Assembly: GCA_025963955.1 (NCBI GenBank)
Contig: JAOPZU010000140.1
Coordinates: 1 to 14,839 of the forward strand
Origin: Solirubrobacterales bacterium
GTDB taxonomy: Bacteria > Actinomycetota > Thermoleophilia > Solirubrobacterales > Solirubrobacteraceae
Reading direction: 5' to 3'
Length of the DNA: 14,839 nucleotides
Shown here piece by piece: positions 9,298 to 12,532 of the stretch. The first letter of the stretch is position 1. Every line of letters starts with the position of its first letter. The translations under genes and the position numbers were made by a program. The notes below the pieces were generated by a model, which saw nothing but the letters and a program-made list of their open reading frames with translations, was not told the origin of the DNA and made no database searches.

Positions 9298-9924
9298 TCA
9301 GGCGGGGCGCAGCAGCTCGTCGATGTACGGCCCGAAGAGCCGGGTGACCGCCGCGGCGGTCACCTCCGCCGGCCCGGCGGGGAGCGCGGCGTGGCTGATC
9401 GCCAGCCGGACGAGGGTCTGCGCGAGGAGCTCGGTCCCCGCCTCCGGCGCCTGGGGCCAGCCCGTGCGCATGACGTCGGCGAGCGTCGCGGTCGCGATCG
9501 CCATGACGGGCCCGCCCTCGGTGGTGACGAGCGCGAGCAGGCCGTCCGTCCCGTCCCCTGACGTGATCGCCCGGAGCCGGGGGCGCTCGGCGGCGGCCTC
9601 GAGGAACAGCGCGAACGCCGCCTCCACCGCGCCGCGCGGGTCGACCGTGCGGCCCAGCACGCAGTCGCGCACGGCGGCCAGGAAGCGGTCCGCCTCCCGC
9701 AGGACGTACTCCTGCGCGAACGCCTCGCGCGAGCCGAACTCGTTGTAGACCGTCTGGCGGCTGACTCCGCCGGCCTTCGCGATGTCCGCCATCGAGATGG
9801 CCGGCCACGGACGCCCGCGCAGCAGGTCGTCCGCCCCGTCCAGCACCCGGCCGCGCAGCCGCTCGCGGGCGGCCTCGGCGAACGTCGGCCGGACGGTCTG
9901 CGCGACGGGGGGCTCGGCCCTCAC
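9298..9924 (-). CDS. TetR-family regulator of the alkane hydroxylase operon (AlkU-like)
   Basis: This 208-residue regulator has an N-terminal TetR DNA-binding domain: a helix at about 15-36, then AISMADIAKAGGVSRQTVYNEFGSREAFAQEY (42-73) with the classic turn and recognition helix (GVSRQTVYNEF). The remaining residues form the ligand-binding and dimer domain, whose sequence is not diagnostic. The start is GTG 9924, which overlaps the rubredoxin stop codon as GTGA; the longer frame would run through the rubredoxin gene. Gene order alkB-rubredoxin-tetR parallels the alkB-rubA1-rubA2-rubB-alkU clusters of Rhodococcus. By analogy it should repress its own operon and be released by an alkane-derived ligand. 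The palindrome at 11369-11385 is the obvious binding site. Confidence 0.85.
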   Translation of the reverse strand: MRAEPPVAQTVRPTFAEAARERLRGRVLDGADDLLRGRPWPAISMADIAKAGGVSRQTVYNEFGSREAFAQEYVLREADRFLAAVRDCVLGRTVDPRGAVEAAFALFLEAAAERPRLRAITSGDGTDGLLALVTTEGGPVMAIATATLADVMRTGWPQAPEAGTELLAQTLVRLAISHAALPAGPAEVTAAAVTRLFGPYIDELLRPA

Positions 9925-10088
9925 GCCGGCACCGGCACGAAGTCCACCTTCTCCCGCACCGCGCAGTCGGGGCAGCACCAGTCGTCCGGGACCTGCGTCC
10001 ACGGCGTACCGGCGGGGAAGCCCTCCCGCGGCGCGCCCGTCGCCTCGTCGTAGACGTAGCCGCAGCCAGGGCACTCGTAGGCCGCCAC
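9921..10088 (-). CDS. rubA: Rubredoxin, AlkG1-type
   Basis: This 55-residue iron protein carries one Fe bound by four cysteines in CPGC (6-9) and CPDC (39-42); AYECPGCGYVYDEATG and the DDWCCPDC segment are textbook rubredoxin. It would pass electrons in the alkane hydroxylase chain. The residues after the second motif read AVREKVDF: the glycine is replaced by alanine and an extra arginine is present, the two marks used to separate AlkG1-type from AlkG2-type alkane rubredoxins. AlkG1-type members did not replace the Pseudomonas electron donor in complementation tests. A further cysteine (Cys38) sits next to the second motif. The GTG start at 10088 follows the alkB stop by one base, and the stop overlaps the tetR start. 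A reductase partner is not in the window. Confidence 0.92.
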   Translation of the reverse strand: MAAYECPGCGYVYDEATGAPREGFPAGTPWTQVPDDWCCPDCAVREKVDFVPVPA

Positions 10089-10089
10089 C

Positions 10090-11286
10090 TCAGGCCGCCT
10101 TCCCGTAGCGCCCGAGCACGCGGTCCCGCCGGCGCGGGTAGATGTTCGCGCGCGTCACGTCGCCGTCGTAGTGGGCGAGCACGCGCTTGTCCATCACCCG
10201 GCGCCACAGCGGCGGGAAGTAGGCCAGCGTGATCATCGAGCCGTAGCCCGAGGGCAGCTCGGGCGCCTCGTCGAAGTGGCGCAGCGCCTGATAGCGGCGG
10301 ACCGGGTTGGCGTGGTGGTCGGAGTGGCGCTGCAGGTGGTAGAGCAGGACGTTGGACGCGGTGTTGTTCGAGTTCCAGCTGTGCTCGGGGCGGCAGCGCT
10401 CGTAGCGGCCGTCCTCCTGCTTCTGACGGACCAGGCCGTAGTGCTCCAGGTAGTTCACGACCTCCAGCAGCGAGAACCCGAAGACCGCCTGCAGCAGCAG
10501 GTAGGGCAGGACCTCCACGCCGAAGCCCGCCACGAGCGCGGCGAACAGCACGAGCGTCATCGCCCAGGCGTTGAGCACGTCGTTGCGGTAGGTGAAGAAG
10601 CCGCAGCCCACGCGGTCCAGGCGCGTCTTCTCCAGCTCGATCGCCGACCGCAGGCTGCCGCTGACCGTGCGCGGCAGGAAGGCGTAGAGGCTCTCCCCGA
10701 GGCGGGAGGACGCCGGGTCCTCCGGCGTGGCGACCCGCACGTGGTGCCCCCGGTTGTGCTCGATGAAGAAGTGGCCGTAGCCCGTCTGCGCGAGCGCGAC
10801 CTTGGAGGCCCAGCGCTCGCCGTTCTTGCGCTTGTGGCCCAGCTCGTGCGCGGTGTTGATCGCGATCCCGGCGACGGTGCCGATCGTGAGCGCCAGACCG
10901 ATGGACTCGATCACCGACAGGTCGCCGCTGCCCCACTTCCAGCAGGCGAAGAGGAGTCCGCCGTACTGCAGCGGCAGGAAGAGGTAGGTGCACCAGCGGT
11001 AGTAGCGGTCCTCCTCCAGGTGCTTGACCACGCTCTCCGGCGGGTTGGCCTCGTCGCTGCCGACGAACGTGTCGAGCAGCGGCAGGATGATGTACATGAA
11101 CATCGGGCCGAACCACCAGAAGACGCCCAGGCCGGTGGCGGCGACGAGTCCGAGGGCGATGAACGGCAGCAGCGGCACGAGCAGCCCCAGCAGCCACAGG
11201 TAGCGCTTGGGATCACGCCAGGAGACCTGCTCCCCCGTGTCCGTCCCCGCCGACTTCTCCACGTTGCGCAGCGTTGCTGCCTCCAC
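10090..11286 (-). CDS. alkB: Membrane-bound alkane 1-monooxygenase AlkB
   Basis: This 398-residue integral-membrane non-haem di-iron enzyme hydroxylates the terminal carbon of alkanes, using O2 and electrons from rubredoxin. All family signatures are present: HELGHK (147-152), EHNRGHH (176-182), NYLEHYGL (278-285) and LQRHSDHHA (318-326). Hydrophobic segments lie near 29-50, 52-72, 99-117, 127-145 and 238-275. I place the start at GTG 11286 because GAAGGGGG (11299-11292) lies five bases upstream. A longer frame opening with TTG at 11376 would begin inside the operator and upstream of the promoter. No rubredoxin is fused to the C-terminus; a separate one follows after one base. A TTGTCA-N17-TACCTT promoter overlapped by a palindrome suggests TetR-controlled expression. 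Substrate chain length cannot be read from the sequence. Confidence 0.95.
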   Translation of the reverse strand: MEAATLRNVEKSAGTDTGEQVSWRDPKRYLWLLGLLVPLLPFIALGLVAATGLGVFWWFGPMFMYIILPLLDTFVGSDEANPPESVVKHLEEDRYYRWCTYLFLPLQYGGLLFACWKWGSGDLSVIESIGLALTIGTVAGIAINTAHELGHKRKNGERWASKVALAQTGYGHFFIEHNRGHHVRVATPEDPASSRLGESLYAFLPRTVSGSLRSAIELEKTRLDRVGCGFFTYRNDVLNAWAMTLVLFAALVAGFGVEVLPYLLLQAVFGFSLLEVVNYLEHYGLVRQKQEDGRYERCRPEHSWNSNNTASNVLLYHLQRHSDHHANPVRRYQALRHFDEAPELPSGYGSMITLAYFPPLWRRVMDKRVLAHYDGDVTRANIYPRRRDRVLGRYGKAA

Positions 11287-11347
11287 GACGACCCCCTTCA
11301 CGTTCCGTTGACACACGCGGGCCGATCCGGCCGTCCGCTTGACAGCG

Positions 11348-11376
11348 AAGGTACCAGCTGTAAACCGATTTGACAA
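11348..11376 (-). promoter_or_regulatory. Promoter of alkB-rubA-tetR
   Basis: On the minus strand TTGTCA (11376-11371) and TACCTT (11353-11348) are separated by 17 bases, close to the housekeeping consensus. The predicted start near 11341 leaves a leader of about 55 bases with a good ribosome-binding site. The -35 lies inside the palindrome at 11369-11385. A second, imperfect inverted repeat (TTGACAGC at 11339-11346 with GCTGTAAA at 11357-11364) flanks the -10. Confidence 0.6.
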
Positions 11377-11385
11377 CCTGTCAAA
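11369..11385. promoter_or_regulatory. 17-bp palindromic operator, likely TetR site
   Basis: TTTGACA and TGTCAAA form perfect seven-base arms around ACC. The site covers the -35 of the alkB promoter and is one of the few A/T-rich stretches nearby, as expected for a repressor operator. Assignment to the TetR encoded in the same operon is by position, not by a known motif. Confidence 0.6.
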
Positions 11386-11410: not shown

Positions 11411-11416
11411 TAGAGT
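11411..11416 (+). promoter_or_regulatory. TAGAGT -10 element for the candidate RNA
   Basis: A TANNNT hexamer on the plus strand sits about seven bases before the proposed 5' end of the structured RNA. No convincing -35 is visible 16-18 bases upstream; the alkB operator ends 25 bases before it. Confidence 0.35.
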
Positions 11417-11422
11417 GGGAAT

Positions 11423-11572
11423 CCGACGCACCCCAACTCGTCGCGGGTGACCGCGGCGGGAGTGTCTATTGCCCAGGCACGCCACATCAATTAGGTCCTG
11501 GGACTCGTATTAATTAGGTTGGGTGTGATCGACGGGCGCTGGGCCGGCAAGAGTCGCCGGCCCATCTCGTTT
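11423..11572 (+). ncRNA. Candidate structured small RNA (about 150 nt), family not recognised
   Basis: The gap between alkB and the LysR gene holds no convincing protein gene but folds well on the plus strand. P1 pairs CGCA (11427-11430) and CCCAAC (11432-11437) with GTTGGG (11518-11523) and TGTG (11524-11527), with one bulged C. P2 is a hairpin at 11438-11446/11451-11459 capped by GUGA, a GNRA tetraloop. P3 joins GAGT (11460-11463) and CCCAGG (11472-11477) to the uninterrupted CCTGGGACTC (11497-11506). A terminator-like hairpin (11540-11564) with TCTCGTTT follows. Three G-U pairs (one in P1, two in P2) work only for the plus-strand RNA. Two AATTAGGT copies (11489-11496, 11512-11519) lie in the P3 loop and at the last junction. 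The next gene downstream is on the opposite strand, so a stand-alone RNA fits better than a riboswitch. It is not a tRNA, 5S, SRP, 6S or RNase P RNA that I can recognise. Confidence 0.45.
11540..11564 (+). terminator. Rho-independent-type terminator of the candidate RNA
   Basis: TGGGCCGGC (11540-11548) and GCCGGCCCA (11556-11564) form nine perfect pairs around a seven-base loop and are followed by TCTCGTTT (11565-11572). The U-rich side is downstream only on the plus strand. On the minus strand, after the LysR gene, the trailing bases are GC-rich. A role behind the LysR gene is still possible. Confidence 0.5.
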
Positions 11573-11590: not shown

Positions 11591-12532
11591 TCAGGAGGCG
11601 AGCGAGAGTTCGCGGCGGGCCGCGCCGAACTCCGCCCCGACCTCGCCGAGAACCGCGAGCATCGCCTCGCGCGCCGGCGAGGCGTAGGAGCCCGCGAGCG
11701 TCGAGGCCATGATCCGGCGCACGGGCGGCCGGGCGCCGAGGGAGCGGACGACGACGTCGTCGCGCAGGTTGATGAGCGCGAGGTCCGGGACGAACGCCAG
11801 GCCCATCCCGGCGGCGACGAACCCCTGGATCGACGGATAGTCGTTCGAGGCGAACGCGATCCGCGGCTCGAAGCCGGCGGTCCGGCAGGCCCGCAGGAAG
11901 ATCGAGGCGTCGGGGCAGCTGCCGGCGGAGCCGAGCATCCACTGCTCCTCGGCCAGGTCCCCGAGGCGCAGCGACCGGCGGTGCGCCAGCGCGTGCGTCT
12001 CGGGCAGGATCACGTACATCGGGTCGTCGAGCAGGTGGTGCTCCTCGATCCCCGGACCGAACTGGCAGGTCTCCTCGTAGGTGGTGGAGATCGTCAGCGC
12101 GATGTCGATCTCCCCCGAGCGCAGCAGCGCGATGCCGTCCTCGGGCTCCGCGGGCTGCAGCGTCAGGTCGACGGCGGGGTGGCGCTCGCGGAAGAGCGCG
12201 ATCGCGCGCGGCATCACCGACGCGCCCGCGGACGGGAAGGCGGCCAGGCGCAGGCGCCCGCCGCGCAGGCCGGCGATCGCCTCCAGCTCGGCCTCGGCGT
12301 CGGCCAGGCGCGCGAGGATGGCGTCGGCGTGGCGCACGAGCACCGCTCCCGCGTCCGTGAGCCGTACGCCGCGGGCGTTCCGCTCCACGAGCTTCGTCCC
12401 GGCCTCACGTTCCAGGGCCGCGATCTGCTGCGATACGGCAGATTGCGTATAGGCGAGGGCCTCGGCCGCCGCAGAGAAGGACCCGCGCTGGGCGACTTCA
12501 CGGAGCACACGCATACGGCGGACGTCGAGCAT
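11591..12532 (-). CDS. LysR-family transcriptional regulator
   Basis: This 313-residue protein has the LysR N-terminal winged helix: MLDVRRMRVLREVAQRGS leads into a helix-turn-helix at about 18-41 (SAAAEALAYTQSAVSQQIAALE), then LVERNARGVRLTDAG. A linker helix leads to a periplasmic-binding-protein-like effector domain (about 90-295) with LRLAAFPSAGASVMPRAI and a GFVAAGMGLAFVPDLAL stretch, both family-typical. The effector is unknown. ATG 12532 is supported by a TAAGCT -10 hexamer ending six bases upstream, giving a leaderless transcript. It is divergent from a small GNAT-like gene, with a LysR-type T-N11-A dyad in between, so autoregulation and control of that gene are plausible. Control of the alkane genes cannot be excluded but nothing shows it. 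Confidence 0.9.
   Translation of the reverse strand: MLDVRRMRVLREVAQRGSFSAAAEALAYTQSAVSQQIAALEREAGTKLVERNARGVRLTDAGAVLVRHADAILARLADAEAELEAIAGLRGGRLRLAAFPSAGASVMPRAIALFRERHPAVDLTLQPAEPEDGIALLRSGEIDIALTISTTYEETCQFGPGIEEHHLLDDPMYVILPETHALAHRRSLRLGDLAEEQWMLGSAGSCPDASIFLRACRTAGFEPRIAFASNDYPSIQGFVAAGMGLAFVPDLALINLRDDVVVRSLGARPPVRRIMASTLAGSYASPAREAMLAVLGEVGAEFGAARRELSLAS

Follow-up and report, generated by a model that had tools for sequence, protein, structure and literature searches.

A candidate free-standing structured RNA with its own family in the Solirubrobacteraceae

Bacterial genomes contain gaps between protein genes that may hold structured RNAs, and one such gap raises the question addressed here: does the space between an alkB-like gene and a LysR gene in a Solirubrobacterales genome encode a free-standing RNA, and what might such an RNA do? 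The window—the whole stretch of 14,839 nucleotides that was analysed—is a contig of a genome that is 68% complete. A first-pass annotation, made from the letters alone, had proposed a structured plus-strand RNA of no recognised class in this gap. Here we follow that proposal through relatives, covariation, distribution and comparison with known RNAs.

The locus and its parts

The features of the locus are collected in Table 1. The true start of the AlkB-like gene probably lies nearer 11290, and no tRNA gene was found in the window. All the parts named in the first-pass annotation lie where it had put them: the ten-pair closing stem is present with one bulged A, as are the capped hairpin, the third hairpin with its eight-base bulge, the terminator-like stem with its tail, the two AATTAGGT copies and the TANNNT -10 box. 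The window RNA is a short form, consisting of P1, a simple P2 and P3.

Table 1. Coordinates of the candidate RNA, its parts and its neighbouring genes in the window
Feature	Position	Strand	Basis or remark
Candidate free-standing structured RNA locus	11423-11572	+	
Upstream neighbour, fatty-acid-desaturase domain, AlkB-like	10090-11376	-	
Downstream neighbour, LysR regulator	11591-12532	-	
-10 box TAGAGT, preceded by CGC	11411-11416	+	TANNNT conserved in relatives; no conserved -35
P1 closing stem, 5' strand (CGACGCACCC)	11424-11433	+	pairs with 11521-11531
P1 closing stem, 3' strand (GGGUGUG-A-UCG, A11528 bulged)	11521-11531	+	fold and covariation
P2 hairpin, GUGA loop; a branched domain replaces the hairpin in long forms	11437-11460	+	fold and alignments
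P3 domain: outer stem AGU/ACU, 8-nt bulge, CCCAGG/CCUGGG stem, large loop	11461-11506	+	fold and alignments
P3 eight-base bulge GUCUAUUG	11464-11471	+	seen where the first-pass annotation placed it
Pseudoknot strand 1 (GUGUC)	11462-11466	+	family pair GUGUC/GACAC
Pseudoknot strand 2 (GCCAC), in P3 loop	11481-11485	+	4 of 5 pairs in window; U11465.C11482 mismatch
J3/1 single strand (GUAUUAAUUAGGUU); other short forms have GUAUGAAGUCAGG here	11507-11520	+	A8 alignment, by eye
Terminator-like 3' hairpin region	11532-11572	+	stem conserved downstream in relatives
3' hairpin stem TGGGCCGGC/GCCGGCCCA	11540-11548/11556-11564	+	outer pairs 11532-11536/11566-11570
3' hairpin tail UCUCGUUU	within 11532-11572	+	sequence

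Folding energy gives a first indication of structure; the plus strand of the locus folds better than shuffled sequences (z -3.7, with one of 200 shuffles as good). The minus strand also out-folds its shuffles (z -3.1, none of 200 as good), so that the direction of the RNA is not settled by energy alone.

A separate feature lies upstream of the AlkB-like gene, where positions 11369-11385 form a perfect inverted repeat, TTTGACA-ACC-TGTCAAA. Counterparts are found in two genomes of the same genus, as TTTGACAAGGTGTCAAT in G006 and, further upstream, as CGACAAGGTGTCAG in G007. The repeat is a possible operator, and the TetR-family gene at 9298-10074 (PF00440) may be the one it serves.

Relatives and conserved structure

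A DNA comparison with 151 genomes, the window's own included, yielded two true relatives: G006 and G007 carry RNAs that are 87% and 86% identical to that of the window, in the same alkB-lysR gap. Six further short matches (L005-L010) were judged to be chance, four of them after inspection. Among the three closest sequences compensatory changes are confined to the 3' hairpin (5 pairs), and more distant relatives were therefore needed. A covariance model built from these three (R1) found 15 of 299 relatives, and a model built from 16 sequences (R2) gave matches in 29 of 399 genomes of the class. A degenerate P3 pattern recovered 59 records from a named genome collection, 56 of which match R2 with an E-value of 0.051 or better; the remaining three are L063, a long form by its sequence with a weak score, and L071 (Gordonia sputi) and L100 (a Melainabacteria bin), both judged to be chance pattern matches.

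Most members found are long forms, with two additional branches on P2 and a distance of 65-83 nt between the P2 anchor and P3 (44 sequences). The third model, R3, was built from these 44 long forms with no short-form sequence included, and it finds the window RNA at 11423-11537; the E-value is 1e-6 when the window is searched and 2.4e-4 when its genome is. This match is the strongest homology test, within the limit that R3 is not blind, since models and a pattern partly derived from short forms had been used to find its long forms. A member of the window's own genus, G003, carries a long form (L133, 2523-2681; R3 E-value 1.2e-18) about 1.9 kb from an alkB-like gene. Both forms thus occur within one genus, and the P2 branches may have been lost there.

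Covariation, which the first-pass annotation had proposed as the check on its fold, was found in long and short forms alike. A7 is a plain MAFFT alignment of the 44 long forms (L033, L063 and L096 left out); A8, which holds 20 short forms including the window, is model-fitted, as is A5, and both lean towards the model structures. Near-identical loci were removed only where the core was identical, and L071 was left out of all counts. In A7, 96.9% of 1664 pair cells are paired and both sides have changed in 20 of 38 pairs; 92 cells hold such changes against a shuffle mean of 22.1, and none of 500 shuffles, which ignore relatedness, reaches any of the five measures. Shifting the partner by 1-3 columns lowers pairing to 52.4% or less. 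In A8, pairing holds in 97.2% of cells, and both sides have changed in 8 of 25 pairs, six of them in P1 (6 of the 10 modelled P1 pairs). With shuffles that again ignore relatedness, the 8 of 25 pairs are reached by two of 500 and the number of pair types by 11 of 500; the other three measures, among them the 50 cells with both-side changes, are reached by none.

Support is uneven across P3. The central CCCAGG/CCUGGG stem is 99.2% paired and nearly invariant in the 44 long forms, with its five inner pairs invariant in the 20 short forms; because it hardly varies, it has no covariation support of its own. Less can be said for the outer P3 stem, a weak one with 91.7% of its cells paired in A8 and no both-side change; it stands outside the structure used for the long forms. 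The hairpin that had been described as GNRA-capped does carry a GUGA cap in the window, but the cap is not conserved, G007 having CUUG in its place.

A pseudoknot between the bulge and the loop of P3 had been overlooked in the first reading. All five pairs of GUGUC with GACAC can form in 57 of 66 loci, against 6.0 expected from shuffled loops, and four of the five in five more loci, the window, G006 and G007 among them. In six loci the two strands have changed together to GUGUU and AACAC. The first reading had instead looked to two AATTAGGT copies in the P3 loop and the last junction as the place of a binding surface. Both copies are present in the window, but the exact pair is shared with G006 only; G007 has one copy and AATTGGGT instead of the other, and the remaining 63 of the 66 loci have none. 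A kissing contact between the copies was dropped because the pair is limited to these 2 of 66 loci. Three loci deserve separate mention: in L024, L027 and L028 (from G002, G004 and G005) the first pseudoknot is incomplete, and by eye the P3 bulge can pair with J3/1, as AUGGC with GCCAU in G002 and G005 and as AUCGC with GCGAU in G004. A second pseudoknot between bulge and J3/1, compensatory by eye, is possible.

The direction of the RNA, previously argued from a few G-U pairs, is borne out by the alignments. When the same pairs are read on the minus strand, standard pairing falls by roughly 7 to 10 points, to 89.8% in the long and 87.4% in the short forms, and the -10 box and 3' hairpin also lie on the plus strand. 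All 62 loci counted have a TANNNT, mostly with CGC before it, whose first base is 24-30 bases ahead of the P2 anchor, the distance range having been chosen after the sequences were inspected; in three upstream control stretches of the same width the motif occurs in 1, 0 and 1 of 62 loci, and at random places in 1%. This count excludes L071, L063, L096, L020 and L033, in which P1 was not safely placed by the script; L063, L096 and L020 show the box by eye, and L033 has CAGGCT and thus no box. No -35 element is conserved across the promoter loci.

Downstream, 64 of 65 loci have a stem of at least 8 pairs (G-U allowed) within a stretch of 85 nt counted from 26 nt past P3, compared with 16.1 expected from random places in these loci; for a few of them the script chose another stem than the expected 3' hairpin. 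The 12 bases after the stem hold a mean of 3 T, and the U-rich tail is weak in many relatives, making the efficiency of termination uncertain. Reading frames inside the RNA are short (median 19 amino acids, longest 50, across 66 loci), and a small protein encoded within it was thought unlikely on these lengths. As far as sequence comparison can establish them, then, the homology, strand, paired structure and pseudoknot of the RNA are in place, together with its promoter box, the conservation of its 3' hairpin and, from the surveys that follow, its copy number and independence of neighbours.

Distribution, neighbours and known RNA classes

R3 matches occur in 92 of the 232 genomes of the order, all of them in family f1 (Solirubrobacteraceae) and spread over 21 of the order's 54 genera; of the 112 order genomes with a completeness of 90% or more and a contamination of 5% or less, 53 are positive. 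A sample of the phylum gave matches in 4 of 296 genomes, again all f1. One copy is present in 91 of the 92 positive genomes, and two in G204, which has 7% contamination. R2 adds genus g6, bringing the count to 22 of 25 numbered f1 genera, with no match in g5, g7 or g24. Among the f1 genomes off the R3 list, 35 of 38 are also negative with R2 at E-values up to 1; one of the other three has a weak R2 match (E 0.28), and none of the 17 best-quality genomes in the off-list set is positive. The negative f1 genomes include several that are more than 95% complete, six of g12, and small ones of g13 and g24. As the RNA goes undetected in some well-assembled genomes of the family it is not indispensable, and it is probably common in the family but dispensable; these absences are soft, because the number of candidates that the search scores in each genome is limited. 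The RNA is carried by records of Paraconexibacter, Conexibacter, Solirubrobacter and Patulibacter, including the strains Paraconexibacter antarcticus 02-257 (NZ_CP098502.1), Conexibacter arvalis DSM 23288 and Patulibacter medicamentivorans I11.

These counts bear on the simplest alternative, that the fold is a DNA-level element (an operator, repeat or mobile piece) or arose by chance. High G+C content makes stems common, and both strands fold better than their shuffles; against this stand the covariation, the G-U pairs that fit one direction, and the single copy per genome, and neither an exact match to the P3 pattern in viral_contigs nor a blastn match to the window in plasmids was obtained. 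We consider this explanation exceedingly improbable.

The genes beside the RNA were called by a third-position G+C heuristic and clustered by similarity. Upstream genes are divided between the strands (31 plus, 30 minus), and downstream genes are more often on the minus strand (40 minus, 23 plus); 57 of 124 flanking proteins have no relative among the others. The alkB-lysR placing holds for the window, G006 and G007, and other loci have other neighbours. The commonest shared setting, seen in 11 loci, has a lepA-like gene upstream and frequently a murJ-like gene on the downstream side; the recurring upstream gene we take, by eye, to be lepA. Apart from the RNA itself, Rfam AsrC matches below the gathering score were seen in L090 (2373-2437) and L057 (7278-7340), apparently in the start of lepA; they are probably conserved coding sequence rather than antisense RNA.

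An aptamer-like fold followed by a terminator-like hairpin could also belong to a cis-acting riboswitch or leader acting on a same-strand gene downstream of it. The gene that follows is encoded on the opposite strand in the window, G006 and G007, and across the family 40 of 63 downstream genes, as called by the heuristic, face the RNA, with neighbours that differ from locus to locus and no conserved same-strand downstream gene across the loci. The variation of neighbours argues that the family, taken together, is neither a leader nor a riboswitch; the cis reading is largely refuted by gene order, and we regard it as very unlikely. The earlier view of a free-standing RNA agrees with both the facing gene in the window and the changing neighbours elsewhere.

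No known class in Rfam 15 accounts for the RNA, as had been suspected. Rfam 15 (4227 covariance models) gave no gathering match in the window and, at E-values up to 10, just one 17-base match (E 9.8) on the other strand. Over the RNA there was no match in short forms (5 loci) or long forms (7 loci); the matches at relaxed thresholds were chance, plus the two AsrC matches, which lie outside the RNA. Annotation based on Rfam consequently misses it. A missed RNase P or SRP RNA was rejected, both mapping elsewhere than the new RNA in G004-G007; of 31 genomes searched, 29 gave an RNase P RNA (17 of the 19 from f1) and 26 an SRP RNA (15 of the 19 from f1). Among the open-access literature matches listed, no paper names an RNA of this group, and two survey papers on novel bacterial RNAs (PMC8632094, PMC11109978) do not mention the group names in their main text.

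6S RNA is a stem-closed rod with a central bubble. The new RNA resembles it in being free-standing, single-copy per genome, similar in length, closed by a stem at its ends and patchy by family within the order; it differs in being a three-way junction with a pseudoknot, and it has no 6S model match. The 6S model (RF00013) has no match in the window, and none in 25 f1 genomes at E-values up to 1. Matches were obtained in all five sampled f3 genomes, three of them over the cut-off, and one clear match in the six f2 genomes; the other five f2 genomes (one with E 0.7) and all five f4 genomes are without a convincing match. R3 found no match to the new RNA in f2, f3 or f4.

Two other actinobacterial RNAs invite comparison, by description. 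Ms1 (MTS2823, scr3559) is described in PMC9130861 as a structured, free-standing RNA found where 6S was not, with candidates identified by synteny, mostly with a HAD hydrolase neighbour. The new RNA is likewise actinobacterial, structured and free-standing, in a family of which 25 genomes gave no 6S match. Its neighbours vary; those in the window are AlkB-like and LysR genes, and those of the other loci were compared by similarity clustering. The terms Thermoleophil-, Solirubrobact-, Conexibacter and Rubrobacter are absent from the main text of PMC9130861. The CoRP RNA of Corynebacterium, as PMC11077062 describes it, is another lineage-limited structured RNA from an actinobacterium without known 6S or Ms1; it is 516 nt long with tRNA genes on its flanks, compared with about 150-210 nt here and no tRNA gene in the window.

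What the RNA may do

With moderate confidence, we read the locus as the gene for a free-standing, trans-acting structured RNA that forms its own family in the Solirubrobacteraceae and is recognised by a protein as a folded object. Transcription would proceed on the plus strand from the RNA's own CGC-TANNNT promoter, starting at P1 or a base or two earlier. The transcript is predicted to fold into a compact three-way junction of P1, P2 and P3, which the P3 bulge-loop pseudoknot would lock, and the 3' hairpin would end the RNA as a terminator or an end cap. The folded RNA would then accumulate and act through a bound protein, not by base pairing with mRNAs. Recognition by protein is suggested because it is mainly the fold, junctions and loops that are conserved, with no long exposed conserved seed seen by eye. 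In the 44 long forms 72 columns are at least 90% conserved, 22 of them outside modelled pairs; about six of these 22 (near columns 53-57 and 100-104) are, judging by the fold, probably paired in an unmodelled P2 branch, which weakens the case for protein binding.

A trans-acting small RNA that regulates mRNAs through base pairing would share many of these properties: a gene that stands alone, with a promoter box of its own and a hairpin resembling a terminator, a length of about 150-210 nt, and variable hairpin loops that could hold species-specific seeds. What is conserved here is a closed fold whose pseudoknot is maintained, and by eye we see no conserved seed that is exposed, for which reasons we think this reading decidedly unlikely.

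If a protein does recognise the RNA, RNA polymerase is our first choice of candidate, a tentative suggestion that draws on analogy with Ms1 (PMC9130861) and CoRP (PMC11077062). The RNA may, by an improbable but worthwhile conjecture, be the family's RNA-polymerase-binding RNA, a functional stand-in for 6S, Ms1 or CoRP with a different architecture. The distribution fits such a role, the 6S model matching none of 25 f1 genomes, all five f3 genomes and clearly one of f2, and the new RNA having been found only in f1; CoRP provides a precedent, since an RNA unlike 6S and Ms1 is described as binding RNA polymerase in C. glutamicum (PMC11077062). Against it, the new RNA has no 6S model match and no apparent bubble resembling an open promoter, and f2 (5 of 6 genomes) and f4 (5 of 5) gave no convincing 6S match while no match to the new RNA lies in either family, so that the complementary pattern may only reflect how poorly the 6S model reaches into this order. 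That an unrelated three-way-junction RNA with a pseudoknot has taken the place of 6S or Ms1 in the Solirubrobacteraceae and binds RNA polymerase is a specific proposal that we hold to be doubtful.

Whatever its partner, the protein-recognised RNA that we favour probably does a general, so far undescribed cellular job, a general role being likely from its single copy across most genera of the family and its strong structural conservation. Were RNA polymerase its partner, the RNA would represent a further independent solution to the control of this enzyme by RNA. Because the carriers include named strains, its expression, partner and deletion phenotype are open to direct study—including the prospect of a control of RNA polymerase unlike that by 6S.
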